Shown in pieces: positions 44,392 to 60,260 of a DNA stretch of 64,000 bases (the first letter of the stretch is position 1; every line of letters begins with the position of its first letter). The notes below the pieces were generated by a model. The model was not told the origin of the DNA. It saw only the letters and a program-made list of their open reading frames with translations, and made no database searches. Both the position numbers and the translations under genes were made by a program. Origin of the DNA: Microbacteriaceae bacterium MWH-Ta3 (GTDB lineage: Bacteria > Actinomycetota > Actinomycetes > Actinomycetales > Microbacteriaceae); contig QBKD01000001.1 of NCBI GenBank assembly GCA_003053925.1, forward strand, positions 682,001 through 746,000. Direction: 5' to 3'.

Positions 44392-45288
44392 ATGACCATT
44401 TCACCAACCTTTCGCCGCGCGGGCGCCACAGCCGTTGCGGCAGGACTCGTCGCCGCGCCTCTGACGATTGCCCCGGGGGTGGCGGTGGCTGCGGAAAACT
44501 GCGCCGCGACCACTCCGGCCGCGACTCTTGTCGCACCGGGCATTTGTGAAATCGTGTTCACCGAAGACGGCACCCTGTCCGGCATCTCGGGAATTGACAA
44601 GCTCACTGCCGTTCTCGTGGGTGGTGGCGCTGGTTCGTTCGTATCCTTCTCGTCGTACGGCGGCGGCGCCGGTGAAGTCGTTTATGTTGACGACATTGAC
44701 ACGACCAGCGACTACGTGGTGACGGTCGGCCAGGGTGGAATCGGTAACGGCGAATCCGACGGTGAGATCACCGCTCTGTACGGTAACGACAACAACTATT
44801 ACGCAGCGGGCGGCTTCGGCCCCGGTTTTGAGGGCGGCACATCCGGATCCAACCTGTCGGGTGGATTTGCCGACTGTTTTGTTGACTCGGTCGCCTATGG
44901 ATACTCGGGCGGCGGTGCCGGTGATTCACAGGCCGGCGACGGTAACTCGGGTGGATTCGGAACGTACGTGTATGAAATTGAGGGCGTTGACGCCTCGCTG
45001 TACAACGACGAGCTCGACCACATTCCCTTTGGGCACGGAGGCGACGGTTGTAATGTCGACGCGAACAACATGTCGTTGCGCCCCGGCGACGGTGCCCCAG
45101 CAGGCCCCGACTACGCACTGGACGGCGCTGACGGCATCGTGATCGTGCGTTTTGCTGCTGATGGAACGCCTGCCGAGGAAGTGACCGAACTTGCCGCTAC
45201 CGGCACGAGCTCGGTTCTTGGTGGCCTTGCTGCGGCTGCTGCTCTCGTGGCTGGAGCTGCTGCGTTGATGATGCGCCGCGTTCGCTAA
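44392..45288 (+). CDS. glycine-rich surface protein with LAATG sorting signal
   Basis: A 298-residue secreted protein. A signal peptide (about 1-34) ends near AVAAENCA. The body is Gly-rich (VLVGGGAGSF, YGGGAGEVVY, SGGGAGDSQAGDGNSGG) with several aromatic residues and paired cysteines, like glycine-rich adhesin or fibre proteins. The C-terminus has the sorting signal ELAATGTSS, a hydrophobic helix and MMRRVR; LAxTG is the motif used by class E sortases of actinobacteria. ATG 44392 follows GAAAGG, and TAGGCT at 44342 is a likely -10. It lies directly before the legionaminic acid genes, so it could be a carrier of that glycan, which is speculation. Confidence 0.8.
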   Translation: MTISPTFRRAGATAVAAGLVAAPLTIAPGVAVAAENCAATTPAATLVAPGICEIVFTEDGTLSGISGIDKLTAVLVGGGAGSFVSFSSYGGGAGEVVYVDDIDTTSDYVVTVGQGGIGNGESDGEITALYGNDNNYYAAGGFGPGFEGGTSGSNLSGGFADCFVDSVAYGYSGGGAGDSQAGDGNSGGFGTYVYEIEGVDASLYNDELDHIPFGHGGDGCNVDANNMSLRPGDGAPAGPDYALDGADGIVIVRFAADGTPAEEVTELAATGTSSVLGGLAAAAALVAGAAALMMRRVR

Positions 45289-45391: not shown

Positions 45392-46387
45392 ATGAAGGTA
45401 TTTCTTACAGGCGCAGACGGTTTCATCGGTTCACATCTTGCAGAAGAGCTGGTGCGCTCGGGTCACGAAGTCACCGCACTCGCGATCTACAACTCGATTG
45501 GTTCGTGGGGCTGGCTGGACACGCTGTCCGCCGATGTGAAGTCGCAGCTGAACGTGGTCATGGGCGACATCCGCGACCCGTATCACATGGCACAGTTGGT
45601 CAAGGGCCAGGACGCCGTCTTGCACCTCGCCGCCCTCATCGCCATTCCCTTCTCCTACGTTGCACCGGATCTTTATGTGCAGACCAACATCACGGGAACT
45701 CTCAACTTGTTGAACGCCGCGCGCGACGCCGGCGTTGACCGCTTCATTCACACCTCGACCAGCGAGGTGTACGGCACGGCTCAGTACGTGCCCATGGACG
45801 AGGGTCACGTTTTGCAGGGACAGTCGCCCTACTCGGCATCGAAGATTGGCGCAGACCAGATGGTGCGCGCGTTCTATTCGTCGTTCCAGTTGCCGACCAT
45901 CACGATTCGTCCGTTCAACACCTACGGACCTCGCCAGTCGGCTCGTGCCGTGATCCCCACGATCATTTCGCAGCTGGCCGCCGGCAAGAAGGAAATCAAC
46001 CTGGGTTCACTCACGCCCACGCGTGACTTCACCTTTGTGACCGACACGGCAAAGGGGTTCGAAAAGGCCCTGCACGCAACCACGGGCTTCGGCGAGGTCA
46101 CGAACCTCGGTGTGGGCTTCGAGGTCACGATCGGCGAAACGTTCTCGATCATCAACGACATCATGGGTGCCGGCGCTGTGGCGACGGAAGACCCCAACCG
46201 CATTCGCCCGAAGAATTCCGAGGTCGAGCGCCTGTTCAGCGACAACACCAAGGCCAAGACCGTTTTGCAGTGGGAACCGGAAATCAAGGGAATCGACGGA
46301 TTCCGTGCCGGCCTCGAAAAGACCGTTGACTGGTTCACCGACCCCGTGAACCTGGCCAAGTACCGTCCCGACGAGTACACGGTCTAG
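45392..46387 (+). CDS. legB: NAD-dependent 4,6-dehydratase, LegB type
   Basis: A 331-residue extended short-chain dehydrogenase with Rossmann motif TGADGFIGSH (6-15), HTSTSEVYGTA and the catalytic YSASK. The sequence AIYNSIGSWGWLD after the first strand, and the order of neighbours, match LegB, which converts NDP-N-acetylglucosamine to the 4-keto-6-deoxy sugar in legionaminic acid synthesis. It is the first gene of a seven-gene set with LegC, LegG, LegI, LegH-like, PtmE-like and LegF. Other sugar 4,6-dehydratases are less likely because of this context. Confidence 0.88.
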   Translation: MKVFLTGADGFIGSHLAEELVRSGHEVTALAIYNSIGSWGWLDTLSADVKSQLNVVMGDIRDPYHMAQLVKGQDAVLHLAALIAIPFSYVAPDLYVQTNITGTLNLLNAARDAGVDRFIHTSTSEVYGTAQYVPMDEGHVLQGQSPYSASKIGADQMVRAFYSSFQLPTITIRPFNTYGPRQSARAVIPTIISQLAAGKKEINLGSLTPTRDFTFVTDTAKGFEKALHATTGFGEVTNLGVGFEVTIGETFSIINDIMGAGAVATEDPNRIRPKNSEVERLFSDNTKAKTVLQWEPEIKGIDGFRAGLEKTVDWFTDPVNLAKYRPDEYTV

Positions 46388-46392
46388 TCGTC

Positions 46393-47562
46393 ATGGGTAT
46401 GCCGTCCGCCGAGGACTTTGTTGCTCGAATTCGCTCGGTTGTGGGCGAACACGATGGTCCCATCGGGCTCCACGAGCCGGAAATTGGGGATATCGAACAG
46501 CGCTACCTGAAGGAATGCCTGGACAGCACGTTCGTGTCGTCGGTGGGTGCCTTCATTAATCAGTTCGAGGCGCGGCTCGCCGAATTCACCGGTGCGAAGT
46601 ACGCCATCGCCGTCAGTAATGGCACCGTTGGCCTGCAGGTTGCACTCGTTCTTGCGGGTGTGGAACCGGGCGACGAGGTCATCGTTCCCACGCTGTCGTT
46701 CATTGCCACGGCAAATGCGGTGTCTCACGCGGGAGCAGTTCCTCACTTCATCGACAGTGAAGAACTCACCATGGGCATGAGCCCCGAGGCGCTGCGCGCC
46801 AGCCTGGCATCCATGCGCCGTGAGGGAACCGCTCTGGTTAACCCCGCAACCGGCCGTCGTATTGCCGCGATTTCGCCCATGCACACGCTGGGTCACCCGG
46901 TACGTATCGAAGAGATTTGCGCAATCGCCACGGAATACGGCATTCCCGTGGTGGAAGACGCCGCGGAATCGCTCGGTTCGTTCGTACGCGGTCAACACAC
47001 GGGAACCTTTGGGTTGCTGGGTGTTATTTCGTTCAATGGCAACAAGATTGTTACCACCGGTGGTGGCGGAGTCATCCTGACCAACGACGACGCGCTGGGT
47101 GTGCGCGCTAAGCATCTCACCACCACGGCAAAACTGCCCCACAAGTGGGAGTTCGAGCACGACGAGATCGCCTGGAATTACCGCATGCCGAACCTCAATG
47201 CCGCACTCGGCATGGCCCAATTGGACCGCTTGCCCGGATTCCAGGTGGAAAAGCGCGAACTGGCCGACGCCTACAAGGCAGCGTTCGAGGGTTTCGAGGG
47301 CGCACGCTTCGTCGAGGAACCGGCGGGAACCACGAGCAACTACTGGCTGTGTGCCGTCCAGCTGGATACGCCGTCGCTCGAGGTTCGGGACTCGCTGATG
47401 CAGGCCTGTCACGACGCGGGACTGCTCGTTCGCCCCATGTGGAATCTGCTGCACACGCAGCGCATGTACGCGGGTTCGCCGCGCGAAGAACTTGATACGG
47501 CAATCGACCTGCACGCCTCGTTGATCTGCCTGCCCAGCACCCCGCGCCTCGGTCGAAAGTAG
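46393..47562 (+). CDS. legC: sugar 4-aminotransferase, LegC type
   Basis: A 389-residue PLP enzyme of the DegT/DnrJ/EryC1 family. The PLP lysine is Lys218 in SFNGNKIVTTGGGGVI. VSNGTVGLQVALVLAGVEPGDEVIVP and VVEDAAESLGS are typical family motifs. The long N-terminal extension (SAEDFVARIRSVVG) and the segment FVSSVGAFINQFE are seen in LegC enzymes, which put an amino group on C4 of the LegB product. It follows legB by 5 nt. No clear ribosome site precedes ATG 46393, so translation may be coupled. Confidence 0.88.
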   Translation: MGMPSAEDFVARIRSVVGEHDGPIGLHEPEIGDIEQRYLKECLDSTFVSSVGAFINQFEARLAEFTGAKYAIAVSNGTVGLQVALVLAGVEPGDEVIVPTLSFIATANAVSHAGAVPHFIDSEELTMGMSPEALRASLASMRREGTALVNPATGRRIAAISPMHTLGHPVRIEEICAIATEYGIPVVEDAAESLGSFVRGQHTGTFGLLGVISFNGNKIVTTGGGGVILTNDDALGVRAKHLTTTAKLPHKWEFEHDEIAWNYRMPNLNAALGMAQLDRLPGFQVEKRELADAYKAAFEGFEGARFVEEPAGTTSNYWLCAVQLDTPSLEVRDSLMQACHDAGLLVRPMWNLLHTQRMYAGSPREELDTAIDLHASLICLPSTPRLGRK

Positions 47563-47568
47563 TCGCGT

Positions 47569-48738
47569 ATGGCGCGCACAATCGCAGTCATGACAGGAAC
47601 CCGGGCTGATTTCGGGTTACTGCGTCCGTTGCTGACCGAATTGCGCGACTCACCTGACGCCGACCTGCGCATCATCGCGACCGGCTCGCACCTCAGTGCC
47701 GCTCACGGCATGACGGTGTCCGAGGTGCGCGCGGCGGGGTTCGAACCGGCAGCGGAAATTCCGATTTGGGGTGACGACGATTCGTCGGTGGCTGCTGCGA
47801 CGGACACGGGCGAGGCGGTTGCCGCGTTTGCGCGGGCGCTCGCCGACATGAACCCCGACGTGGTGGTGGTTCTGGGCGACCGACTCGAAGCGTTCGCTAT
47901 GGCCACCGCGGCGGCCATCCTGCTGATTCCCGTCGCGCACATTCACGGCGGCGAGATCACGGCCGGTGCCATGGACGACGCCCTGCGTCACTCGATCACC
48001 AAGCTGTCCTACCTGCACTTCACGACAACCGACGATCACCGAAACCGCGTGATTCGCCTGGGCGAAGCGCCCGACCGCGTTTTTAACTTCGGTGCTCCGG
48101 TGCTGGATTCCTTGGTCTCGCTTCCGTTACTGGATCGGCCAGATATTTCCGATCGATTCGGCATTCGATTCGCCGAACACAACATGATGATGACCTTCCA
48201 CCCCGCCGCATTCGATGTGGCGTCGGCGCAGGTCATGATTGACGAACTGCTGGCGGCCATGGGTGACCTGGCCGACGAAGGCGTTCACCTAATTATCACG
48301 GGTACCAACAACGACATTGGATCGTCCGAGGTGCGTGCGGCCATTGCGGCGTTTGTTGCGGCTCGTCCCGACCAGGTGGATTACGTCGAATCATTTGGCC
48401 AACTGGGATACCTCAGCACCATGAAACAGATGTCGGTTGTCACGGGGAATTCGTCCTCGACCGTTCTGGAGGCACCCGTTCTGGGTATTCCCGCCGTTCT
48501 CGTGGGCAACCGTCAAGAGGGCCGACCCATGTCCGCCGGCGTACTGCACCCCGCCGTCACTCGATCCGAAATTCGCGACGCGCTAACGCGCGCACTGACC
48601 CCCGAATTCCGCGCCGCCGCGGCAACCGCGGGCACTCCGTTCGGTCAGCCCGGTTTCGCACGCAAGGCTGCGGCGGAACTGATCACCCACGACATTCCCA
48701 CACCACCGAAAAAGCAATTCTGGCAGGAGTCCACATGA
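47569..48738 (+). CDS. legG: hydrolysing UDP/GDP-sugar 2-epimerase, NeuC/LegG type
   Basis: A 389-residue GT-B-like epimerase. It starts MARTIAVMTGTRADFGLLRPLL, the NeuC/LegG signature, with VVVLGDRLEAFAMATAAAILLIPVAHIHGGEITAGAMDD in the nucleotide pocket region. It hydrolyses the nucleotide and epimerises C2, giving the free 6-deoxymannose-type sugar that LegI condenses. Gene order says the substrate is the diacetamido sugar. It starts 6 nt after legC and overlaps legI by 4 nt (ATGA). Confidence 0.9.
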   Translation: MARTIAVMTGTRADFGLLRPLLTELRDSPDADLRIIATGSHLSAAHGMTVSEVRAAGFEPAAEIPIWGDDDSSVAAATDTGEAVAAFARALADMNPDVVVVLGDRLEAFAMATAAAILLIPVAHIHGGEITAGAMDDALRHSITKLSYLHFTTTDDHRNRVIRLGEAPDRVFNFGAPVLDSLVSLPLLDRPDISDRFGIRFAEHNMMMTFHPAAFDVASAQVMIDELLAAMGDLADEGVHLIITGTNNDIGSSEVRAAIAAFVAARPDQVDYVESFGQLGYLSTMKQMSVVTGNSSSTVLEAPVLGIPAVLVGNRQEGRPMSAGVLHPAVTRSEIRDALTRALTPEFRAAAATAGTPFGQPGFARKAAAELITHDIPTPPKKQFWQEST

Positions 48739-49829
48739 GCAAGCCCGTTCTGATCATCGCCGAGGCCGGCGTGAACCACAACGGTTCGCTGGAAAAGGCC
48801 ATCGAAATGGTGGATGTCGCACTCGAGGCCGGTGCCGACATTGTGAAGTTCCAAACATTCTCGGCAGACAAGCTGGCGCGCAAAGACGCACAGTTGGCCG
48901 AATACCAGAAGAAGGGCGACGGCGACACCCGTAGCCAGTGGGATCTGCTGAAGGGTCTGGAACTCAGTCACGACGAATTCACGCAGATTCGCGATCACTG
49001 TGCCGCCAAGGGCATCGGCTTTCTGTCGACCGGCTTTGATCTGGATGAATTGACCTTCCTAATCGACGAACTGCACATCCCGCTGACCAAGGTGGCGTCG
49101 GGCGATTTGACGTTCGCGCCCATGTTGGTGCAGTCGGGCCTCGCAAACCTGCCCACGATTCTGTCGACGGGTATGGCGAACCTCGAGGAAATCGAACGCA
49201 GCCTGACATTCATTGCTTTTGGATACGCCGTATCGAACGGGCATGTTGCCGCCGATGTCGTGCCCACCGCCGATGTCCTGGCACAAACATTCGCGCTTCC
49301 TGCTGTCCGTGCGCTGCTGGAAGAAAAGGTCACCATCCTGCACTGCACCACGCAGTACCCCGCGGAACTCGACATTCTTAACCTGCAGGCGATCCGCGTG
49401 ATTTCCGACCGTTTCGGTTTGAACGTGGGATATTCTGACCACTCGGCGGGCACTCTGGCCTCGGTCGTTGCCGTGTCACTCGGCGCCACGGTCATCGAAA
49501 AGCACTTCACGCTGGACAAGTCGATGGAGGGCCCCGACCACGCGGCATCGCTCGACCCGGCCGAACTGCACGAATTGGTCTCGTTGATTCGCCAGGCCAC
49601 GACGGCCTTGGGTGAACCGGTCAAGGAATGCCAGCCCATCGAGGTCTCGAACCGCGCAGCCGTTCGTCGTTCGCTGGTGGCCACGCGCGACCTCGCCGCG
49701 GGCCACGTTCTGACCGCGGACGATATCGAATGTCGTCGCCCCGGCGCCGGCCGCACCTCGTTCGATTTTTATGACGTACTGGGAACCACACTCGACCGCG
49801 ACTATGCCGTGGGTGACTACATTGGCTAG
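48735..49829 (+). CDS. legI: legionaminic/N-acetylneuraminic acid synthase (NeuB family)
   Basis: A 364-residue synthase with an N-terminal TIM-barrel NeuB domain (LIIAEAGVNHNGSLEKAIEMV, VASGDLTFAPML, VGYSDHSAGTLASVVAVSLGATVIEKHFTLD) and a C-terminal antifreeze-like SAF domain (RRSLVATRDLAAGHVLTADDIECRRPG). It condenses phosphoenolpyruvate with the sugar from LegG to a nine-carbon nonulosonic acid. Legionaminic acid is inferred from LegB and LegC; sialic acid would not need them. ATGA overlap with legG. Confidence 0.92.
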   Translation: MSKPVLIIAEAGVNHNGSLEKAIEMVDVALEAGADIVKFQTFSADKLARKDAQLAEYQKKGDGDTRSQWDLLKGLELSHDEFTQIRDHCAAKGIGFLSTGFDLDELTFLIDELHIPLTKVASGDLTFAPMLVQSGLANLPTILSTGMANLEEIERSLTFIAFGYAVSNGHVAADVVPTADVLAQTFALPAVRALLEEKVTILHCTTQYPAELDILNLQAIRVISDRFGLNVGYSDHSAGTLASVVAVSLGATVIEKHFTLDKSMEGPDHAASLDPAELHELVSLIRQATTALGEPVKECQPIEVSNRAAVRRSLVATRDLAAGHVLTADDIECRRPGAGRTSFDFYDVLGTTLDRDYAVGDYIG

Positions 49830-50493
49830 TTCACCCTCGATCGTCATGGTGGGCGCGGGCGGTCACGCGCGCGTACTTCAGGATGTTCTGAGCGGCTTGG
49901 GTTTCGAGTTGGCCGGCTTCACGGCACCCCACCCCGACGACAGCCAGCTGGCGGATTCGCTCACCACGGGTGCACCCATTCCCTGGATCGGAGACGACGA
50001 GGCGCTGCGTTCGCGGGATCCCCGGGACATTGTTCTGGTGAATGGCGTGGGTTCGGCGCGTGCGGCGGCGCTGCGCGACTCGGTGTATTCCGACTTCGTG
50101 ACCGCGGGTTTCAGCTTCCTTACGGTCGAATCGCTCGAGGCGCATGTGTCGCCGTCGGCGACCGTGTTGGCGGGAACCCAGGTTTTGCGGGGTGCCGTGG
50201 TGAACACCGACGCCTTTATCGACGAGAACTGCATCATCAACTCCGGCGCGATTGTCGAACACCACAATCGCATCGGCCGATCGGTTCATGTGGCGGTGGG
50301 CGCAACGCTCAGTGGCAACGTGACGGTGGGTGCGGGCACCCATATTGGGGCGAATGCCACGGTCATCCAGGGCATCACGATTGGCGCCAACTGTACAATT
50401 GCGGCAGGGGCGGTCGTTATTTCCGACGTTCCCGATAACAGCACCGCGGTGGGCGTGCCCGCACAATTCCGACCGAGTAAGGGCTCACGATGA
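49813..50493 (+). CDS. legH: NeuD/PglD-type sugar acetyltransferase (LegH-like)
   Basis: A 226-residue protein with an N-terminal Rossmann-like part (IVMVGAGGHARVLQDVL) and a C-terminal left-handed beta-helix of hexapeptide repeats (INSGAIVEHHNRIGRSVHVAVGATLSG, then GNVTVGAGTHIGANATVI). This architecture belongs to PglD, LegH and NeuD acetyltransferases; in this context it should N-acetylate the 4-amino group made by LegC. GTG 49813 overlaps the end of legI by 17 nt; TTG 49822 is another possible start. The catalytic histidine is probably in EHHNRIG. Confidence 0.82.
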   Translation: MTTLASSPSIVMVGAGGHARVLQDVLSGLGFELAGFTAPHPDDSQLADSLTTGAPIPWIGDDEALRSRDPRDIVLVNGVGSARAAALRDSVYSDFVTAGFSFLTVESLEAHVSPSATVLAGTQVLRGAVVNTDAFIDENCIINSGAIVEHHNRIGRSVHVAVGATLSGNVTVGAGTHIGANATVIQGITIGANCTIAAGAVVISDVPDNSTAVGVPAQFRPSKGSR

Positions 50494-51548
50494 TTACCGA
50501 TTTGTCGAAGATTACGGTGACGCCAAGCGCCACCATTCTGGACACCATCACCGCCATTTCGGATGGTGCGGTGCAAATTGCCCTGGTCGCCGACGACAAC
50601 AATGTGCTGTTGGGGACTGTCACCGATGGCGATGTGCGTCGCGGTCTGTTGCGGGGACTGACCCTGGAGGCCAATGTCACCGAGGTCATGAACACCAAGC
50701 CACACGTGGCACGCGTGGGCGAAAGCGGATCTAGCGTCATGACCCGCGAACTCCCCCAGCTGATTCATCAGGTTCCCATCGTGAACGACGACGGTGTGCT
50801 GGTGGGAATGTACACCGACCGCGATGCGGGCGACCGCGGCGAAATCTCGACCCCCGTCGTCCTGATGGCGGGCGGCAAGGGTGTGCGCCTGCACCCGCTT
50901 ACTATCGATGTCCCCAAGCCGATGCTGACGATTGGCGATGTGCCGATCCTCGAAATCATTATTCGTAAACTGCACGCGCAGGGGTTCCGCAACATCTTCA
51001 TTTCGGTCAATTACCTGGCCGACATCATTGAAAACCACATCAAGGATGGCGCGTGGTTGGGCGTCAACGTGACCTACCTGCACGAGGACAAGCCGCTGGG
51101 GACGGCGGGCGCTCTGGGCCAGATGCGCGGCACCCTGAACGAGCCCTTCCTGGTCATGAACTCGGATCTGCTGACAAACGCCGACCTGACTCAGGTGGTG
51201 CAGTTCCACACCAAGCAGAACGCCAAGGCGACTCTGGGTGTGCGCGAATATTCGTTCCAGATTCCCTATGGTGTGGTGAACATCAACGGCACCGAGGTGG
51301 AATCAATCAGCGAGAAGCCCATTCACCGGTCCATGGTGTCGGCCGGCATTTACATGTTGGACCCCTGGGCCCTGGAACTGGTGCCCGAGGGCGAATACTG
51401 CGATATGCCCACGCTGCTGGACGCCATTCGCGGCCGTCACGAAAAGGTTGTGGCATTTCCCATTCACGAATCGTGGTTGGACATTGGCCGCCACGACGAC
51501 CTGCAGGCAGCCCGGGAGCATTCGGTTCACTGGCTGGAAACGAAGTAG
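50490..51548 (+). CDS. ptmE: CBS-domain sugar-1-phosphate nucleotidyltransferase (PtmE-like)
   Basis: A 352-residue protein with two CBS motifs at about residues 5-112 (GTVTDGDVRRGLLRGL and GMYTDRDAG) and a nucleotidyltransferase domain starting VVLMAGGKGVRLHPLTIDVPKPML at about 122. The same CBS plus transferase architecture is found in Campylobacter PtmE, the glucosamine-1-phosphate guanylyltransferase that feeds the GDP-linked legionaminic acid route. It overlaps the acetyltransferase gene by 4 nt (ATGA) and precedes legF. Its presence suggests a GDP- rather than UDP-sugar pathway. Confidence 0.82.
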   Translation: MITDLSKITVTPSATILDTITAISDGAVQIALVADDNNVLLGTVTDGDVRRGLLRGLTLEANVTEVMNTKPHVARVGESGSSVMTRELPQLIHQVPIVNDDGVLVGMYTDRDAGDRGEISTPVVLMAGGKGVRLHPLTIDVPKPMLTIGDVPILEIIIRKLHAQGFRNIFISVNYLADIIENHIKDGAWLGVNVTYLHEDKPLGTAGALGQMRGTLNEPFLVMNSDLLTNADLTQVVQFHTKQNAKATLGVREYSFQIPYGVVNINGTEVESISEKPIHRSMVSAGIYMLDPWALELVPEGEYCDMPTLLDAIRGRHEKVVAFPIHESWLDIGRHDDLQAAREHSVHWLETK

Positions 51549-51554
51549 TCCCTC

Positions 51555-52238
51555 GTGTTTCAGGGTGCTCCGGTTGTCGCGCTGATTCCGGCACGAGGCG
51601 GATCCAAGGGTTTGCCCGGCAAGAACCTCATGAGCTTGGGCGGTAAATCGCTGTTGCAGCGCGCCGCCGACAGCGCCCGTGATTCCGGGCTGGTCGACAC
51701 CATCGTGGTCACGTCGGACGACGAGGCAATTCTGGACCACGCGCGTGGATTGGAATCGGTGGTGGCACATCGCCGATCCGATGCGGCCGCCAGCGACACG
51801 GCAACGGCGGTCGAGGTGGTCGAGGACTACCTGTCGTCACGAACAGACGACGTCGATCCGTGGATCGTGTACCTGCAACCCACGTCGCCGCTGCGCACCG
51901 CACAGCATGTGTCCGACGCCGTGGCGCAATTGGGCGAACACCCCGACTTCACGTCACTCGTGTCGGTCACGCCCGTGGACCCCAAGATTTATTGGACGAT
52001 GACGATCGCGGAATCGGGTGGGATTCAACCGCTGTTCCCCGACCTCTTGGTCACAGGCCGACAGCAGCTGGCTCCGCCGGTGAAACCGAATGGTGCGCTG
52101 TACGTGTTTCGCGCCTCGGAAATGAGCGCACTCGGGCGGTTCCCCGTGACCGGCGCGCTTCCCTTCCTCATGACCGAGGACGAAAGCGTGGATATCGATA
52201 CGCAAGAGGATTTCGATCGCGCCCAGGAACTGGTGTGA
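51555..52238 (+). CDS. legF: CMP-nonulosonic acid cytidylyltransferase (LegF/NeuA type)
   Basis: A 227-residue enzyme with the NeuA/KdsB motif VALIPARGGSKGLPGKNLM (5-23), YLQPTSPLRTAQHVSDAV and a C-terminal VDIDTQEDFDRA. It activates the nonulosonic acid with CTP to the CMP-sugar donor. The start is GTG 51555, 6 nt after ptmE. Its stop overlaps the next start as GTGTGA/GTGA, which couples CMP-sugar production to the GT-B-like protein that follows. Confidence 0.9.
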   Translation: MFQGAPVVALIPARGGSKGLPGKNLMSLGGKSLLQRAADSARDSGLVDTIVVTSDDEAILDHARGLESVVAHRRSDAAASDTATAVEVVEDYLSSRTDDVDPWIVYLQPTSPLRTAQHVSDAVAQLGEHPDFTSLVSVTPVDPKIYWTMTIAESGGIQPLFPDLLVTGRQQLAPPVKPNGALYVFRASEMSALGRFPVTGALPFLMTEDESVDIDTQEDFDRAQELV

Positions 52239-53581
52239 CGACACTTAACGACGTGTGGCAGGTCTTCACACAGATCGAGGACCGCGAGTCGCTGGTGGAA
52301 TGGCGCGTTGCCGGGATTGCCCTGTGGCCGTTGATGAAGAACCGCCTGATGCGCCAGGTGTGCGAATCCGCGGGAATCATCGAACCCACGGATCCGCAAC
52401 CCTCGGTTTTTGATATCGAGAACCCACGTGACGCACGCGCACATCATCACATCGAGGGTCCCGCCACCGTTGTGGTGATGCCGTTTCTCCGACGTGACTC
52501 ACAGGGAATCGACCCCTTTACTCGGCCGATTGCCGACGAATACGAACGCCGCGGCGAAACAGTACTGACGTTTGGGGTGGGTGCGGGCGACGATGGAACA
52601 GGACGCCCGTCGTTGGAACGCCTGATTCGCGACTACACCACGCGGTACCGTCGGCGCTCGCAGGTAATCATTGCCGCACGAATGGCGGGCAACCGCGCGG
52701 CCGCTGCGAAGTGGGCGCGTGTCATCGACCATCTCGAGACCATCCCCGGTGCAAATGCGGGGCCTTACCGTCGGTTCCCGCTGTGGCTTTTGGTGGAATT
52801 CGAGTCGCAGCGCCACGGATTCCGGCGTCTGTTCCGTCGGCTTGGTACGCGGGTTCTCGTTATGGTCAACGCCCACCGCAATGCCGTCATCGCTGGTGCG
52901 CAGGCCGCAGGTGTATGGGTGGTCGAACCTCAGCACGGTGTGGTGTCGTCGACGAGTCCCGTGTTGTCCTGGCGTGGTCACGAAACCGTGCCATACCAGC
53001 CGAACGAATTCCTGGCGTGGGGGCAGTACTGGATTGATTCCATCGGCTTCGCCGGAAACGTGCGCGGCACGGTGATGGGTGCGCCCGCCGCGCTGGAAGG
53101 CCTGCGCCACGCAAACACAACGCCCGATACCCACCGAGTCGTCGTGGTGTCGCAGCCCGAGCAAACACACGCAATCGCAGATTTCGCGGCGCGTGCGGCA
53201 CGAGAAAACCCGGACCTCAGGGTGATTCTGCGCCCCCACCCCAAGGAAGTGGACTACGCGCTTCCGGCCGAAGCGCCGACAAATCTGCACTGCGATCCCG
53301 CTGACGTGTCGTTGCTCGAGCGAATGGCGACCGCGGGAACCGTGATTGGCGTGTATTCGACCGCCCTGTTCGAGGGCTATGCACTGGGGTGCCGGATCGG
53401 TGTACTGGATTTACCCGGTCGGGAACACGTCGGTGCACTATTGGGTCTGCCTGGCGTGAATCTCATCACCGAATCCGCCGCAGACACCGTCTTTCAGGAC
53501 GACGCGTTCGATCGCTCCGCGGCACGGATTGCGGCCGAATACTTCTACGCGCCGGCCCCCGATACTCTGCCGCTTCCCTAA
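52235..53581 (+). CDS. GT-B-like putative nonulosonate transferase, paralogue 1
   Basis: A 448-residue protein whose family I do not recognise. Visible features are an N-terminal EWRVAGIALWPLMKNRL motif (22-38), GIDPFTRP (91-98), RRFPLWLL (179-186), EPQHGVV (231-237), WGQYW (262-266), SQP (306-308), RPHPKE (333-338) and VGVYSTALFEG (about 371-381). A late HP motif and an S-T motif are shared by several GT-B sialyl- and polysialyltransferase families that use CMP-sugars. There is no signal peptide or membrane helix. The GTG start overlaps the legF stop. A tandem paralogue follows. Transfer of legionaminic acid from its CMP donor is inferred. Confidence 0.65.
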   Translation: MTTLNDVWQVFTQIEDRESLVEWRVAGIALWPLMKNRLMRQVCESAGIIEPTDPQPSVFDIENPRDARAHHHIEGPATVVVMPFLRRDSQGIDPFTRPIADEYERRGETVLTFGVGAGDDGTGRPSLERLIRDYTTRYRRRSQVIIAARMAGNRAAAAKWARVIDHLETIPGANAGPYRRFPLWLLVEFESQRHGFRRLFRRLGTRVLVMVNAHRNAVIAGAQAAGVWVVEPQHGVVSSTSPVLSWRGHETVPYQPNEFLAWGQYWIDSIGFAGNVRGTVMGAPAALEGLRHANTTPDTHRVVVVSQPEQTHAIADFAARAARENPDLRVILRPHPKEVDYALPAEAPTNLHCDPADVSLLERMATAGTVIGVYSTALFEGYALGCRIGVLDLPGREHVGALLGLPGVNLITESAADTVFQDDAFDRSAARIAAEYFYAPAPDTLPLP

Positions 53582-53674
53582 CGACGCCCCGCCCTGGCGT
53601 TGTCCCCCGTCACGGGCCAACCACTTGCGCGGTAAAATTCAGGTACGGACGAACGACACAGTACGGGGCGCATC

Positions 53675-55141
53675 ATGGCAGACGACAGCTTGGCACGGAT
53701 CGGTGAAGCATTTTTTGCCGCCGAGAAAGCCGAAGATCTGTACAACTGGACCGTAGATGGCGTGCACGTGTGGCCGGTTTTTCGCAGCCGAATCCTGAAG
53801 TTCATGACGCGCAACGAAAAGCGCGCGCAGATGAAAACCCCCGACGACGATGCTCCCGTTGGCGCCGCAGTTGCGGCACCGAGCGCACCGGCCGTGCCCG
53901 AACGGCACTATCGCGGACGCAGCCCGGAATCGCTTCTGTGGGCGGCTGCACGAGGGAAAGCGGCGGCGCCTCAAGCGGACGAACCCGATTTTCGCTCTCT
54001 GGGCGACCGCACCACTGTGGTGGTTCCCTTTGCAACCCGCGACGCGGCGGGCATCGATAAGTTCTCCCAGCCCGTCATCGATCACTTCGGCGATCGCGCT
54101 CTGGTGATTGGCGTAGGCCTCTGGGATAAGGGAACCGCGTTCCCCACGATCGAGGCCCTGCAAGAGTTTTTCTGGAAGAAATACGGTCTCTGGGCCCGCA
54201 TCAAGACCCGCCTTGTTGTGACCAAAGATGTGCACCGCAAGTATGACCGCGTGCGCCGAATCCTCGAAGAATCCGGAGCATCGACGGCGCCGTATGACCG
54301 TTTCCCCCGCTGGCTTTATGCACGATTCTTGGCCGAGCGCATTGGGTATCGCACGATTCTGAAGGCCATGCCCAAGGTTTCGACAATCTATATGGTGAAT
54401 GCCGCCCGCATGAGTTTCATCGCGGCAGCCCATGACTGCGGAATTCGTGTCGTGGAAATTCAGTCGGGCGTTTTTTCGAAGTACAGCCTGCAGTTCTCGT
54501 GGCCGGGGAGCCCACGCGTGGAGTACATCCCGGACGAGATCTGGACGTGGGGCGAGTACTGGACCGTGGGTATCGAGCGCGCGTCGCAGCAGACCGTTCG
54601 GATCATGGGAGCGACGGATGAATTCGAGAGCATTCGTTCCGCCTCGATTCCCCGTATTCCCGGCCAGACGTTGTTCCTGTCGCAGCCCACTATCGCTGCC
54701 GACCTCTTGAGCGAGGCGCTCGAGTTCGCCGTGAAATGTCCCGAACGTTCGGTGATTTTCAAGCTGCATCCGCGGAACTCCGTCGATGAAATTTCGGCAC
54801 AGATCGAGGAATTCGGTCAGACACCCGCCAATTTCTCGGTGTCGCACACCGAGCAGTCTTCGCTCGAGATGATTTCCGCCAGTGAACTGGCGGTGGGCGT
54901 GTTTTCCACGGCGCTCATCGAGGCCGCGAGCCTGGGTGCCAAGGTGGCCATCATGACCCTGCCGGGCTGGGAACACCTCGAGCCACTCATTGTCGGCGGA
55001 CATGCGCACGCCTTCGCGACCGTCGACGACCTGATTGCGGGAATCCCGAATATTCCCGTTGCCGAAAACGGCGAGTTCTTCTACGGCCACACCGTTCGCT
55101 GGGACGAACTGTTGGGCGAACCCACAGCGGAACGGCTCTAG
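53675..55141 (+). CDS. GT-B-like putative nonulosonate transferase, paralogue 2
   Basis: A 488-residue paralogue of the preceding protein. The same landmarks occur in the same order: NWTVDGVHVWPVFRSRI (24-40), GIDKFSQP (126-133), DRFPRWL (208-214), EIQSGVF (261-267), WGEYW (292-296), SQP (336-338), KLHPRN (363-368) and VGVFSTALIEA (about 407-417). It has a variable Ala/Pro-rich insert near residues 50-100. TAAAAT at 53633-53638 could be its own -10, giving a 30-nt leader. The stop shares CTAG with the convergent GT2 gene. Function inferred as a second sugar transferase on the same glycan. Confidence 0.65.
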   Translation: MADDSLARIGEAFFAAEKAEDLYNWTVDGVHVWPVFRSRILKFMTRNEKRAQMKTPDDDAPVGAAVAAPSAPAVPERHYRGRSPESLLWAAARGKAAAPQADEPDFRSLGDRTTVVVPFATRDAAGIDKFSQPVIDHFGDRALVIGVGLWDKGTAFPTIEALQEFFWKKYGLWARIKTRLVVTKDVHRKYDRVRRILEESGASTAPYDRFPRWLYARFLAERIGYRTILKAMPKVSTIYMVNAARMSFIAAAHDCGIRVVEIQSGVFSKYSLQFSWPGSPRVEYIPDEIWTWGEYWTVGIERASQQTVRIMGATDEFESIRSASIPRIPGQTLFLSQPTIAADLLSEALEFAVKCPERSVIFKLHPRNSVDEISAQIEEFGQTPANFSVSHTEQSSLEMISASELAVGVFSTALIEAASLGAKVAIMTLPGWEHLEPLIVGGHAHAFATVDDLIAGIPNIPVAENGEFFYGHTVRWDELLGEPTAERL

Positions 55142-56283
55142 CGAATACCGACCGCCGCAAGTTCCTCGAGGGCGCGTTCGCGGTTGCCCGCGACAACCGC
55201 ACGAATGGCGGGAACGTAACGTGGCGGGCAGGTGGCCCAAAATTCGTCCGAGGCATCGCCGAACAGGTCGGCCGCGGAACGGGCGAAGGTTGCGAAGTAG
55301 GCCTCGTCGGTGCGCGGCAACATTTCTACGTAAAACTGGAAGTCGTAACGAATGACGCTCCAGCGGTAGTACTCCCAGATTGGGTGCTGGGGTTGATCAC
55401 CGAAATGTTTGGCAAGCACACGACGCGTTTCGGTGACGGCATGCAGACGGTGTTCGAGGTTCACCGGTTCCCATCGACGTTGCGTAATCGACGGTGTGGA
55501 GCCGGTCCGAACGCGCCACCAGTACGACGCGGTGCGAACAACACCGAATGTCGAGGCGCGGGCATACGCATCGGTCATGACCGCCATGTCCTCGTAGAGG
55601 AAGCCGTCGGGGAAGCGAAGGCCCGCCCCCGACCACAACGACCACCGGATCAGCTTGTTCCATGCGGTGACGTCGGAAATGTACTGAACGCTGTCAGACA
55701 AGGTGGTGCTGGCGATGTCCCGGCGATACAGGTGGCCCTGCCGTTGTTGAAAGAACAGACCGCGCATGCGCCACGCGCTTCCGACCACCAGGTCATTGGC
55801 GCCCATTGCGCGCACGTATCGGGCGATGGTTCCCGGTGGAACGACGTCATCGGAGTCCACGAACATGACAAAATCCGTGTGGTCAATTGCCTCGACGCCC
55901 GTGTTGCGCGCGGCGGCAAGTCCGGCGTTCGCTTGCTCGATCACGGTTACCGACGCAAATCGGCGCGCGTACGACCGAGCCACATCGACCGACCCGTCGG
56001 TCGACCCATCGTCCACCACGATCACTCGAATATTCCGGTACGTCTGCGCCAACAGGCTGTCCATGCACACCGCGAGGTAACGACGGACGTTGTACACCGG
56101 GACGATTACGGTCACCACGGGCAGCGATGCTTCGGCCGCGCCTCGACGCAGTGCAATCAGAGGAACGAAAACCCCGCGCATCGCGGCCATGACCAGATTT
56201 TCGGCCGGAGTCGAAATAAGAACTCGCTTGCCCATCGAGACGACGGTGCGTCGTACGCGCGACACGACAGAGGCCGGTGACAT
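55138..56283 (-). CDS. family 2 glycosyltransferase
   Basis: A 381-residue GT-A enzyme. VTVIVPVYNVRRYLAVCMDSLLAQTYRNI and VDDGSTDGS are the nucleotide-sugar motif, MFVDSDD the metal-binding DxD, and FPDGFLYEDMAVMTDAYARA the acceptor-side acidic motif. About 70 residues precede the domain (MSPASVVSRVRRTVVSMGKR), perhaps for membrane association. ATG 56283 follows AAAGGACGG; the open frame upstream is antisense to the exporter gene and is not coding. A TAAACT -10 on the minus strand is at 56343-56348. It converges with the GT-B-like gene, sharing CTAG at the stops. Sugar specificity unknown. Confidence 0.85.
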   Translation of the reverse strand: MSPASVVSRVRRTVVSMGKRVLISTPAENLVMAAMRGVFVPLIALRRGAAEASLPVVTVIVPVYNVRRYLAVCMDSLLAQTYRNIRVIVVDDGSTDGSVDVARSYARRFASVTVIEQANAGLAAARNTGVEAIDHTDFVMFVDSDDVVPPGTIARYVRAMGANDLVVGSAWRMRGLFFQQRQGHLYRRDIASTTLSDSVQYISDVTAWNKLIRWSLWSGAGLRFPDGFLYEDMAVMTDAYARASTFGVVRTASYWWRVRTGSTPSITQRRWEPVNLEHRLHAVTETRRVLAKHFGDQPQHPIWEYYRWSVIRYDFQFYVEMLPRTDEAYFATFARSAADLFGDASDEFWATCPPRYVPAIRAVVAGNRERALEELAAVGIR

Positions 56284-56412: not shown

Positions 56413-57267
56413 GTGAATAAGCAGGAACTCGTTGCCTATGCAGAGGCCCACGGTCTTTCGCGTATGGGCGCACGACCTCCGCTGTGGAACTATCTTGTCG
56501 AGGTCTGGCAACGCCGCGAGTTCGTCATCGCGATGTCGAAATTTGCCAACGAGGCGCAGAATGCCCGCACCCGTCTGGGCAAGTGGTGGCTCATTCTGCT
56601 TCCCGTTTTCCAGGCCACGGTGTACGGTCTGATTTTCGGCTTTATTCTCGATTCGGCACGACCCGATAACTTCATCCCCTACCTGTTCACCGGGGTGTTC
56701 CTCTTCACCTTCATCTCGAGCTCGTTCACCACGGGTTCGACGGCACTGACCTCGAATGCGGGATTGATTCGCAGCCTGTCGTTCCCCCGCATGATGCTTC
56801 CGCTGTCGACGGTCATTCGCCAATTCCTCAACCTTGTGCCCGTGCTGGGACTGTTGATCGTCCTCGTGGCCATCATGCAGGGCGGCCTCAAACTCGAAAT
56901 TCTGTACTTGCCGCTCGTTATTGTCGTACTCGTCATTTTTGGTCTGGGGATGGCGCTGGTCGCTGCTCGACTGAACATGCAACTTCAGGACTTGGGCAAG
57001 CTGATTCCCTTTGCCAACCGCGTGATTTTCTACACTTCGGGCATCTTCTTCAGCATCGAAAACCTGCTGGCGGGTAACCCGACCCTGCTGGCAATCGCTC
57101 AGTGGAATCCGGTGTACGCCATCATTTCGCTGGCCCGCGGTGCGTTGGTCGTGGGATACGAGGTAGACCCGTGGATGTGGGTGCCCTCGCTCGTGTGGGC
57201 GCTGGGGCTTTCGATTCTGGGCACGGTGTACTTCTGGGCAGCAGAGGAACGTTATGGCCGCGACTAA
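56413..57267 (+). CDS. wzm: ABC-2 type polysaccharide exporter permease (Wzm/TagG type)
   Basis: A 284-residue membrane protein with six predicted helices. The first (WWLILLPVFQATVYGLIFGFIL) follows an amphipathic N-terminal helix, and SSSFTTGSTALTSNAGLIRSLSFPRMMLPL is the conserved cytosolic loop. The pattern is that of ABC-2 exporters of teichoic acids and O-antigens. It overlaps the ATPase gene by 14 nt. Glycosyltransferases and a TagB/F-like protein follow, so its cargo is probably an undecaprenyl-linked polymer made by them. Confidence 0.9.
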   Translation: MNKQELVAYAEAHGLSRMGARPPLWNYLVEVWQRREFVIAMSKFANEAQNARTRLGKWWLILLPVFQATVYGLIFGFILDSARPDNFIPYLFTGVFLFTFISSSFTTGSTALTSNAGLIRSLSFPRMMLPLSTVIRQFLNLVPVLGLLIVLVAIMQGGLKLEILYLPLVIVVLVIFGLGMALVAARLNMQLQDLGKLIPFANRVIFYTSGIFFSIENLLAGNPTLLAIAQWNPVYAIISLARGALVVGYEVDPWMWVPSLVWALGLSILGTVYFWAAEERYGRD

Positions 57268-58054
57268 AGGCAAAGCTTCGGGCGCAACGCCGGCGCAGCC
57301 CAACGACAACCGCAAGCCCATCATCGTGGTGGACGACGTGCACGTTGTGTACAAGATTCACGCGGGTGGCCGTGTTGCAACTCCGGGCGCCGACCGCGGG
57401 GGGCTTTTGACCAAGCGCACTAAACTGCGCACGGTTCACGCCGTCAAGGGCGTCTCGTTCACCATTTACGAAGGCGAGACCGTTGGAATCATCGGAAGCA
57501 ACGGTTCCGGTAAGTCCACGTTGATGCGTGCTATCGCCGGCCTGATTCCCATCGATCAGGGTGACATCTACGCCACCGCGCGCCCTAGCCTTCTGGGCGT
57601 GGGCGCTGTGCTGCTTCCCGCACTGACCGGCGAACGCAACATTTTGCTGGGTGGTATGGCGATGGGCTTCTCGCGGAAGCACATGGAAGAGGCCTCGAAG
57701 AAGATTGCTGAATTTGCGGGCATGGAAGAATTCATCGACCTGCCGATGCGCACCTATTCATCGGGCATGTCGGCCAGGTTGCGTTTCGCGATTGCGGCGC
57801 ACCGAAATCACGAAATCTTGATTATCGACGAGGCGCTCGCCGTGGGTGACGCACAGTTCCGTGCTCGATCCGAGGCCCGTGTGCGCGAAATGCGCGAGCA
57901 AGCGGGAACGGTATTCCTGGTCAGCCACAGCATGACCTCGATTCTGGACACCTGCAACCGCGTGATTTGGCTGGAAAAGGGCGTACTGCGTGCCGACGGC
58001 GACCCACAGACGGTCATCGACGAGTACAAGGCCCACATGGACGCGAATCCCTAA
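57254..58054 (+). CDS. wzt: polysaccharide exporter ATPase (Wzt/TagH type)
   Basis: A 266-residue ABC ATPase. Walker A is GSNGSGKST (81-89), the signature YSSGMSARLRFAIA, Walker B ILIIDEALAVGD, and the H-loop LVSHSM. A characteristic insert near the N-terminus (HAGGRVATPGADRGGLLTKR) precedes RTVHAVKGVSF, as in TagH-like exporters. It has no C-terminal carbohydrate-binding domain, so export need not depend on terminal-sugar recognition. It starts within the end of wzm. Confidence 0.92.
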   Translation: MAATKGKASGATPAQPNDNRKPIIVVDDVHVVYKIHAGGRVATPGADRGGLLTKRTKLRTVHAVKGVSFTIYEGETVGIIGSNGSGKSTLMRAIAGLIPIDQGDIYATARPSLLGVGAVLLPALTGERNILLGGMAMGFSRKHMEEASKKIAEFAGMEEFIDLPMRTYSSGMSARLRFAIAAHRNHEILIIDEALAVGDAQFRARSEARVREMREQAGTVFLVSHSMTSILDTCNRVIWLEKGVLRADGDPQTVIDEYKAHMDANP

Positions 58055-58059
58055 CCAGC

Positions 58060-59070
58060 GTGAAGCACTATCCCGCAATCACCGTGGTGATGCCCGTGTT
58101 GAACGAGGCGAAGCATCTGGCCGACGCCGTAACGAGCGTCGTGGAACAGCACTATCCCGGCGACATGGAAATTCTCCTGGCGATGGGCACATCGACGGAC
58201 GGAACCGATGACGTCGCCGCGGCCCTTGCTGCAGCGGACTCACGCATTCGACTGATTCCCAACCCGCACAATCTCACCACCGTGGGGCTGAACGAGGCAA
58301 TCCGACAGGCGAAACACGACATCATCGTTCGCATCGACGCCCACAGCCAGCCCACCGTCGGATATTTTGCTAACGGCGTGCATGTCCTGGACGAACAGGG
58401 CGCGGATCTGGTGGGCGGCATCATGGATGCCCGCGGACGTTCGGCGTTCCAAAAGGCGGTGGCGTGGGCGTACACCAGCCGTTTCGGTATCGGTGGTGCC
58501 AACTTCCACGTGGGTGGTGAAGCGGGCGAGGCAGAGAGTGCGTACCTGGGAATCTTCCGTAAGTCGGCGCTGCAGCGCGTGGGCGGGTACGACGAATCCA
58601 TCGTGCGGGGCGAGGACTGGGATCTGGCTCAGCGCATCAAGAAGACCGGTGGATTGGTGTGGTTTAGCCCCGAGCTGCGCGTGATTTATTGGCCGCGCGG
58701 CCGATTCGACCGCCTAGTCAAGCAGTTTTATTCCACCGGTGTGTGGCGCGGCGACCTCACTCGACGCGACGTCGCCGGTGCACCCGTTCGGTACTTTGCT
58801 CCGCCCGTTCTGGTGGCCGGTGTGGCCGTGGGTCTTGCGATGGCGTCGGCCGGTGTGCTGATTGGGCTCGTACCCGCGGCAACCTACCTGGTGGGTGCCG
58901 CGGCACTGGCGGTGACGGCACGCGGGTTGAGCCTCAAATCCCGTATCGCGCTGATGATTGTTCTTCCCACCATCCACTTCAGCTGGGGCTGGGGTTTCTG
59001 GGTGGGTTTTGTGCGCGGTGCCGGGCAAACCGTCGATCGCAGTCGCGTGACGTCGAAGGGTAAATCGTGA
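58060..59070 (+). CDS. family 2 glycosyltransferase with C-terminal membrane helices
   Basis: A 336-residue protein. The GT-A domain shows ITVVMPVLNEAKHLADAV, RIDAHSQP as the DxD-like motif, GIFRKSALQRVGGYDESIVRGEDWDL and an R/K-rich RGRFDRLVKQFYSTGVWR motif. Two or three hydrophobic segments are at about 245-310. The layout is that of ExoA-like transferases in exopolysaccharide clusters. GTG 58060 follows wzt by 5 nt, and it overlaps the next gene by 4 nt (GTGA). Confidence 0.85.
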   Translation: MKHYPAITVVMPVLNEAKHLADAVTSVVEQHYPGDMEILLAMGTSTDGTDDVAAALAAADSRIRLIPNPHNLTTVGLNEAIRQAKHDIIVRIDAHSQPTVGYFANGVHVLDEQGADLVGGIMDARGRSAFQKAVAWAYTSRFGIGGANFHVGGEAGEAESAYLGIFRKSALQRVGGYDESIVRGEDWDLAQRIKKTGGLVWFSPELRVIYWPRGRFDRLVKQFYSTGVWRGDLTRRDVAGAPVRYFAPPVLVAGVAVGLAMASAGVLIGLVPAATYLVGAAALAVTARGLSLKSRIALMIVLPTIHFSWGWGFWVGFVRGAGQTVDRSRVTSKGKS

Positions 59071-60260
59071 ACCCGCTCGCTACCGTTCGCCGACTGGCGA
59101 AGACCTATTCGCCCACCCGAATTCTGGGTGCGCTGCGCCGCCGCAAAACCGACTGGCTGCGTGCGATGCAGTACCGCCCCGACCGCACGACCGTGCTGGC
59201 GAACGCCGTTTTGTTCGAAACCTTCCAGGGCAAGACGATCGGCGACAACCCACTGGACATCTACGAGGCGGTGAAGCGCGCGCGCCCCGACCTCACCATT
59301 TACTGGACGGTTATCACGGGCAAGACGACGGCGCCCGAGGGGACCATTGGGTTGGCGCATGGCTCGCGCGAGTGGTTGCAGGTGCTGGCAACCGCGAAAT
59401 ACCTGGTGAATAACACGAACTTTCCCTGGTACTTCCGCAAGGTCGAGGGCCAGGTGTATCTGCAGACCTGGCACGGAACACCGCTGAAGCGGCTGGGTCG
59501 CGACATCGAAAACAACAACCTCACCAAAAGCTATTTGGACACGATGGACCGCGAAGCGAGCTTCTGGGATTACCTGATCTCGCCCAGCCCGTTCTGCACC
59601 CAGATTTTCCCTGAATCCTTCGGGTATTCAGGCCGAATTCTTGAAACGGGCTACCCACGAAACGACCGCTTGGTGGTGCAGCCCGAGGGGCTTCGCGAAG
59701 CCGTGCGGGCGCGCCTCGGTGTCGACGCCCAGACCACGCTGGTCATGTACGCACCCACCTGGCGTGATTTCAAGCGTTCGGCCACGGGTAACTGGCAGAC
59801 CGTGAACTACATGGGGGCCGATACCCCGATGCCCGATGGCACGCGCCTGATGTTCCGCGGTCACACCAATACCCACGCCGCGCACACCGACGCCGTCGCG
59901 GGCGGGGCGATTGATGTGACCACCTACCCCGATGTCGCCGAGCTGTATCTGGCCGCTGATGTCTTGATCACGGATTACTCCTCGGTCATGTTCGACTTCA
60001 CGGTGACCGGCAAGCCCGTCATCTTCCTGGCGCCAGATATCGCCCGCTACGAATCCGAACGCGGGTTCTATTTCGACTTCCGCAACGAGGCGCCCGGGCC
60101 GATGTGCATGACGACCGACGAGGTGCTGCACGCCATGGCAAATCTCGACGCCGTTCGTTCTGACTACGCTACGAAGTACGCGGCCTGGCGCGCAAAGTTC
60201 AACTCGCTAGAAGACGGCCACGCCGCCCAGCGCGTGACCGACATCGTGTTCGGGCAGTAG
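59067..60260 (+). CDS. CDP-glycerol-type glycerophosphotransferase (TagB/TagF family)
   Basis: A 397-residue GT-B-like enzyme of the teichoic acid primase/polymerase family. Motifs present are VYLQTWHGTPLKRLGRD, VMYAPTWRD, RGHTN and VLITDYSSVMFDFTVTGKPVIF. The family transfers polyol-phosphate units from a CDP-polyol to a membrane lipid acceptor. It starts with a GTG overlapping the GT2 stop. A nucleotidyltransferase gene next to it may provide the CDP donor. This suggests that the exported polymer contains polyol phosphate. Confidence 0.88.
   Translation: MNPLATVRRLAKTYSPTRILGALRRRKTDWLRAMQYRPDRTTVLANAVLFETFQGKTIGDNPLDIYEAVKRARPDLTIYWTVITGKTTAPEGTIGLAHGSREWLQVLATAKYLVNNTNFPWYFRKVEGQVYLQTWHGTPLKRLGRDIENNNLTKSYLDTMDREASFWDYLISPSPFCTQIFPESFGYSGRILETGYPRNDRLVVQPEGLREAVRARLGVDAQTTLVMYAPTWRDFKRSATGNWQTVNYMGADTPMPDGTRLMFRGHTNTHAAHTDAVAGGAIDVTTYPDVAELYLAADVLITDYSSVMFDFTVTGKPVIFLAPDIARYESERGFYFDFRNEAPGPMCMTTDEVLHAMANLDAVRSDYATKYAAWRAKFNSLEDGHAAQRVTDIVFGQ

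Follow-up and report, generated by a model that had tools for sequence, protein, structure and literature searches.

Legionaminic acid (Leg) is a bacterial relative of sialic acid. Genome sequences allow pathways that produce nonulosonates activated with cytidine monophosphate (CMP) to be predicted, but few of the transferases acting on these products are known. A 64,000-nucleotide stretch of Microbacteriaceae bacterium MWH-Ta3 (GenBank assembly GCA_003053925.1, contig QBKD01000001.1, positions 682,001 to 746,000; hereafter “the window”) raises this question directly: it carries seven genes of a nonulosonate pathway followed by two adjacent genes, GTa and GTb, that have no standard annotation. 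Which enzymes transfer the sugar, and to what? The source is a freshwater actinobacterium with a genome of 1.56 Mb that is 99.93% complete. The pair comprises:

52235-53581, + strand: GTa, predicted GT-B CMP-nonulosonate (CMP-legionaminate) transferase, 448 amino acids, GTG start (basis: open reading frame, paralogy, model, motifs, synteny)
53675-55141, + strand: GTb, predicted paralogous GT-B CMP-nonulosonate transferase, 488 amino acids (basis: open reading frame, paralogy, model, motifs, synteny)

The computed evidence comprises the paralogy of the two proteins, their GT-B fold, conserved motifs, synteny and a statistical association with CMP-nonulosonate genes. On these grounds GTa and GTb very probably use CMP-Leg or a close CMP-nonulosonate and transfer the sugar to a cell-surface glycan. 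Genomic linkage to the nonulosonate synthase NeuB is the strongest evidence for this assignment.

Linkage of the pair to nonulosonate genes

We built a profile from 17 sequences of the family and searched it against 396 genomes of the window genome's order. The profile matched 28 genomes, all of which possess NeuB, compared to 146 of the 396 overall (P=1.2e-13). Counted by genus, NeuB was present in nine of nine matching genera (P=3.5e-5). In all 27 matching genomes other than the window genome the match lay close to NeuB, at a distance of 0.25 to 8.5 kb (median 1.2 kb). As a control we used PF04464, an HP-motif GT-B family of surface polymers: 97 of the 205 genomes carrying PF04464 had NeuB, and 2 of the 66 places listed were within 10 kb of it, as against 27 of 27 for our profile (P=2e-21). 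Similar results were obtained with strong matches only (E<1e-20), where 11 of 11 genomes had NeuB (P=1.3e-5) and 10 of 10 matches were within 8.5 kb of it (P=7e-11 compared to the PF04464 control). Of 15 genomes in the window's genus, the window genome alone has the transferase family, and it is also the only one with NeuB. Across the phylum, NeuB was clearly present in eight of 11 further matching genomes. The initial annotation had proposed to check whether homologues co-occur with nonulosonate genes, and by these counts they nearly always do.

The seven genes upstream of GTa clearly form a nonulosonate pathway, as read from their matches to family models:

45392-46387, + strand: LegB, NAD-dependent 4,6-dehydratase (TIGR04180, E=8e-138, 458 bits, slightly under the cut-off of 475)
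46393-47562, + strand: LegC family aminotransferase (TIGR04181, 498 bits, above cut-off)
47569-48738, + strand: LegG/NeuC, UDP-GlcNAc 2-epimerase type (TIGR03568, 378 bits, above cut-off)
48735-49829, + strand: LegI/NeuB, nonulosonate synthase (TIGR03569, 398.4 bits against a cut-off of 399.65; PF03102, E=3e-83)
49771-50493, + strand: LegH/NeuD, sugar N-acetyltransferase (TIGR03570, 189 bits, above cut-off)
50490-51548, + strand: PtmE-like sugar-1-phosphate nucleotidylyltransferase with a CBS-like N-terminal part (sub-cut-off matches only)
51555-52238, + strand: LegF/NeuA, CMP-nonulosonate synthetase (PseF model TIGR03584, E=3e-32, under the equivalog cut-off)

The PtmE-like protein matched nucleotidylyltransferase models over residues 123-347 and the KpsF CBS region over residues 9-107, in each case below cut-off, and the name PtmE follows the Campylobacter Leg pathway. 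As the PseF match is below the equivalog cut-off, the model does not fix the sugar specificity of LegF. The identity of LegB and LegC together with the gene order argues that the sugar of the pathway is legionaminic acid. GTa follows without a gap: its start, GTGA at 52235-52238, shares 4 nt with the legF stop, exactly the overlap that had been noted earlier.

The region 45392-55141 is an accessory locus, with NeuB and the transferase family absent from the 14 other congeneric genomes searched (several of them incomplete). We also considered whether it forms a compositional island; this was not supported, the GC content (0.59-0.63) being like that of the neighboring window.

A scan of GTDB genome contigs yielded ten related loci. 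Nine are from Micrococcales, Microbacteriaceae or other Actinomycetota metagenome-assembled genomes, several of them lake-named, and the tenth, from a proteobacterium, is only distantly related. The order legB-C-G-I-H-ptmE-legF-GTa-GTb is kept in L007, L008 and L010; L011 and L013 hold only the end of this operon, and L009 and L012 are short contigs carrying the GTa-GTb pair. A single copy of the transferase adjoins NeuB in L014 and L015. A distant locus found in the phylum survey, L090, has an operon of the transferase, neuC, neuD, legC, legB, neuB and legF.

In a phylogenetic tree the GTa and GTb sequences formed two groups, each with 100/100 support. The duplication is therefore old and predates these species. 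The GTb orthologues at L007:8395-10590 and L008:9986-12181 are 731 amino acids long, with an extra copy of the N-terminal (acceptor-side) domain preceding the full enzyme.

Fold, sequence families and motifs

The two proteins are 29% identical over 441 columns (BLASTP, 182 bits, E=1e-56), well above chance. They share, in order, the landmarks W-x7-WP, GID-x-F-x-x-P, RFP-x-WL, E-x-Q-x-G, WG-x-YW, SQP, HP(K/R) and (I/V)GV(Y/F)STAL-x-E. The adjacent paralogues and ordered landmarks of the initial annotation are thus all present, with the slight correction that GTa has IGVYSTALFE in place of the VGV form.

Structure prediction agreed with the fold proposed earlier. Confident AlphaFold2 models were obtained, with a predicted local distance difference test (pLDDT) score of 88.7 and a predicted TM-score (pTM) of 0.89 for GTa, and 87.6 and 0.86 for GTb. 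With both models Foldseek returned many GT-B structures (E about 2e-7 to 3e-7, probability 1.00), and the highest TM-score among the GTb matches listed belonged to polysialyltransferase 5wcn (0.43 by query, 0.53 by target). As modeled, then, GTa and GTb are confirmed members of the GT-B fold superfamily, with two Rossmann-like domains.

Sequence searches placed the pair outside named families, as had been surmised: no Pfam, NCBIfam or PHROGs model reached its cut-off with either protein, PDB searches with either single sequence gave chance matches only, the PF04464 (CDP-glycerol transferase) model matched neither, and no homologues were found on phages or plasmids. Matches below cut-off were more informative. 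With the polysialyltransferase model PF07388, GTb scored 13.3 bits against a gathering threshold of 23.3 and GTa gave no match; when the 17 homologues were scanned singly, 12 matched PF07388 (E up to 1, best 3.7e-6), 16 matched NF046086 (best E=1.1e-7) and 13 matched TIGR04396 (best E=1.6e-8). The matches of the window proteins to these three models lie below cut-off. Profile-profile comparison gave E=5e-7 with actinobacterial PF07388 members and E=9e-10 with members of PF20471 (DUF6716), in both cases over the C-terminal nucleotide-binding half only. Against the PDB, the top sequence match of the family profile was the polysialyltransferase SiaD, a weak one (E=0.038) over the HPKE motif. Taken together, these similarities suggest that the C-terminal half of GTa and GTb points to polysialyltransferases (PF07388) and their relatives.

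The same half contains the putative CMP-binding residues. In GTa the candidates are R333-x-H335-P336 and S375-T376-x-x-x-E380, with D93 and E231 as candidate acid/base residues; in GTb they are K363-x-H365-P366 and S411-T412-x-x-x-E416, with D128 and E261. We counted conservation over 17 homologues in GTb numbering. E261, G265, W292, G293, Q337, H365, P366 and E416 were invariant. Position 363 was K or R in 17 of 17, so that (K/R)xHP is kept throughout the close homologues, and position 128 was D or E in all 16 that cover it. S411 was S in 16 of the 17 and T in the remaining one, and both the first W of W-x7-WP and the D of GID (as D or E) were mostly retained. In a solved transferase of 3-deoxy-D-manno-oct-2-ulosonic acid (Kdo) the proline of (K/R)xHP packs on the cytosine of CMP, and the motif is common to sialyltransferases (PMC12887879).

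The initial annotation had named three points on which its proposal could fall: the fold, membership of a well-characterized family, and homologues mostly without a nonulosonate pathway. The predicted fold is GT-B, no well-characterized family among the Pfam, NCBIfam and PHROGs models includes the pair, and the homologues mostly occur in genomes with NeuB.

Mechanism, acceptor and alternatives

In the mechanism that we infer, GTa and GTb would be cytoplasmic and would take CMP-legionaminic acid, or a close CMP-nonulosonate, from the pathway of the seven upstream genes. CMP would be bound in the C-terminal domain by (K/R)xHP together with the S-T...E motif, and the acceptor hydroxyl would be activated for inverting transfer by one of the conserved acidic residues in the N-terminal domain, D128 or E261 in GTb. 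The likeliest reason for keeping both duplicates would be the addition of successive or differently linked Leg residues. An initiator and an extender had been suggested earlier. That split is conjecture, one among several conceivable ways of sharing the work; since L014, L015 and L090 hold a single copy, one enzyme can suffice.

The genes that adjoin the operon downstream include candidates for making and exporting the acceptor:

55138-56250 and 57967-59070: GT2 genes in the same cluster
56413-58054, + strand: ABC-2 exporter pair Wzm/Wzt (TagGH-like), which may export the acceptor glycopolymer (PF01061, E=5e-13; PF00005, E=4e-21)
59067-60260, + strand: TagF/TarF-like CDP-glycerol glycerophosphotransferase, possible acceptor-polymer gene (PF04464, E=1e-100)

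Because the Wzm/Wzt exporter and the TagF-like gene adjoin, a wall glycopolymer exported by Wzm/Wzt would be the likeliest acceptor in the window genome. A pair homologous to this Wzm/Wzt was found in several of the related nonulosonate loci. The gene just upstream of legB, at 44392-45288, encodes a glycine-rich protein (PF21722) that is secreted and carries a LAATG-like sorting signal at its C terminus; this protein may be a surface acceptor or an unrelated neighbor. Glycosylation of flagellin was rejected as very unlikely, since neither flagellin nor a Maf/MptE-like domain (PF01973) was found in the window genome (99.93% complete).

Several observations weigh against the assignment of the pair as CMP-nonulosonate transferases. 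The donor cannot be read from the fold, as many UDP- and TDP-sugar GT-B enzymes outrank the polysialyltransferase in Foldseek E-value. Nor are HP motifs confined to CMP-sugar enzymes: SpsB of Bacillus subtilis is an HP-motif glycosyltransferase encoded beside a Leg pathway, yet it is dispensable for Leg transfer and is not the Leg transferase (PMC7439481). We therefore rejected the idea that an HP motif by itself proves a CMP donor; the motif argument of the initial annotation stands in that the HP and S-T motifs are present and kept in homologues, but SpsB makes it weaker evidence than was implied. In relatives fused to a GT4 domain (below) the K/R of (K/R)xHP is replaced by A. With respect to linkage, weak matches account for 17 of the 28 in the order, and scanning of 12 of these assigned them to PF20471 or PF07388 and not to the window's own family; congeneric genomes are not independent of each other; and the NeuB matches are no more than doubtful in three of the 11 further genomes of the phylum. 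As for a polymer acceptor, the Leg operon of L008 lacks Wzm/Wzt or TagF-like neighbors.

One possibility is that GTa and GTb are indeed CMP-Leg transferases but attach the sugar straight to a protein, such as the LAATG-anchored surface protein, and not to a polymer. Maf proteins act on protein in this way, the secreted protein with its sorting signal is encoded beside the operon, and no polymer genes were seen near the L008 Leg operon. On the other hand, the genome possesses no flagellin and no Maf/MptE-like domain, and the relatives that are fused to GT4 and grouped with Wzm/Wzt exporters fit polymers. We regard a protein acceptor as unlikely.

Rather less likely still is that one copy transfers the nonulosonate and that the other changed its donor after duplication, using another UDP-, GDP- or CDP-sugar of the same glycan. 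The long separate histories of GTa and GTb, just 29% identical, would allow this, and L014, L015 and L090 manage with a single copy; however, both copies retain the same CMP-type motifs in genomes with the pair, both lie directly behind legF wherever legF is on the contig, and the scanned flanks of L008 hold no acceptor-building genes. No other glycosyltransferase match was found among the eight flanking open reading frames scanned there; those identified encode a response regulator, EamA, DUF6421, a beta-eliminating lyase, a nitroreductase and a DedA-like protein.

That a GT2 gene or the TagF-like gene encodes the Leg transferase, with GTa and GTb building other parts of the glycan, is very improbable: these genes sit in the same cluster and glycan loci gather many glycosyltransferases, but none of them is beside the L008 Leg operon, which ends with GTa-GTb, and PF04464 homologues are rarely near NeuB in the order (2 of 66 places listed).

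Wider family and comparison with known systems

The reading of GTa and GTb as CMP-nonulosonate transferases may extend to larger proteins. In another family of the order, a domain of the GTa/GTb type forms the C-terminal part of proteins of ~1150 residues with an N-terminal GT4 domain (PF00534), and these cluster with Wzm/Wzt, a GT2, NeuB and NeuA-like genes. Such fusions were seen at L047-L054 and L066 (e.g., L049:11456-14995), were Pfam-checked in three, and sometimes number two per locus; L066 belongs to the window's own taxonomic family. A fusion of this kind may be a two-domain polymerase of a sugar-nonulosonate repeat, and by analogy it brings to mind the teichulosonic acids found in actinomycetes; Streptomyces coelicolor has a known gene region for these, SCO4873-4882 (PMC13011467). 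The broader proposal, that GTa/GTb and the GT4-fused relatives from other families within the phylum are a new CAZy-level CMP-nonulosonate transferase family building teichulosonic-acid-like wall polymers in Actinomycetota, with the fusions as two-domain disaccharide-repeat polymerases, is tentative, and we place it somewhat below an even chance.

Genes of PF20471/DUF6716 adjoin NeuB and NeuA in many Micrococcales (L057, L059-L062, L064, L065, L067-L072 and L074; e.g., L057:6679-10396); Pfam confirmed the identity of the genes at nine of the loci. Their products have the S-S-T motif and C-terminal domain in common with GTa and GTb, without HP, and we consider DUF6716 a strong candidate for a further family of CMP-nonulosonate transferases. 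PF07388 family genes were seen at the Micrococcales NeuB loci L058, L063 and L073; to our knowledge this order is not usually linked with polysialic acid.

A family with so close a tie to NeuB supplies enzymes that can be tested for a part in the nonulosonate glycans of actinobacteria, and a marker by which such glycans can be annotated in genomes; it may also yield tools for the synthesis of legionaminic-acid glycans. A 2019 review stated that, apart from the Tannerella forsythia work described there, the literature and databases held no Leg transferase predictions (PMC6388019).

The T. forsythia enzymes GtfS and TFUB4_00887 are GT-B proteins with an HP motif that lie beside a CMP-nonulosonate cluster and are needed for adding derivatives of pseudaminic acid (Pse) or Leg to the surface glycan (PMC6388019, PMC6120980). 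They have been described with a TagB-like domain (PMC7439481), and we set them beside GTa and GTb by description only. NF046086 (BFO_1060) may represent these transferases; we found no paper naming BFO_1060 or neighboring locus tags.

DUF6716 resembles the pair in its C-terminal profile (E=9e-10), the S-S-T motif and a NeuB/NeuA neighborhood in Actinomycetota. These putative glycosyltransferases differ in lacking the HP motif and in the N-terminal half.

The retaining Kdo/Pse transferases (GT99, GT107, GT140; KpsS1, GT118) share a CMP-ulosonate donor with the proposed activity and, in GT99 and GT107, (K/R)xHP (PMC12887879). GT99, GT107 and GT140 use a QxxxD nucleophile, whereas aligned family members having the conserved SQ glutamine (Q337) have no D at +4 after it. 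An inverting reaction is therefore more likely for GTa and GTb.

With the alpha-2,8-polysialyltransferases (PF07388; CAZy GT38, SiaD 5wc6/5wcn) the pair has in common the GT-B fold, (K/R)xHP, the C-terminal S-T motif and the CMP-nonulosonate context. However, the window proteins fall below the Pfam cut-off, their N-terminal half cannot be aligned by profile, and an N-terminal E..W..WP signature and E-x-Q-x-G are peculiar to their family. The invariant E261-x-Q-x-G265 is a possible counterpart of the D/E-D/E-G catalytic-base motif of PF07388, although the SiaD alignment is too weak for mapping. These comparisons make GTa and GTb a good candidate for a new family of CMP-nonulosonate transferases, distantly related to the known sialyltransferases and of a known kind, GT-B enzymes with CMP-ulosonate donors.

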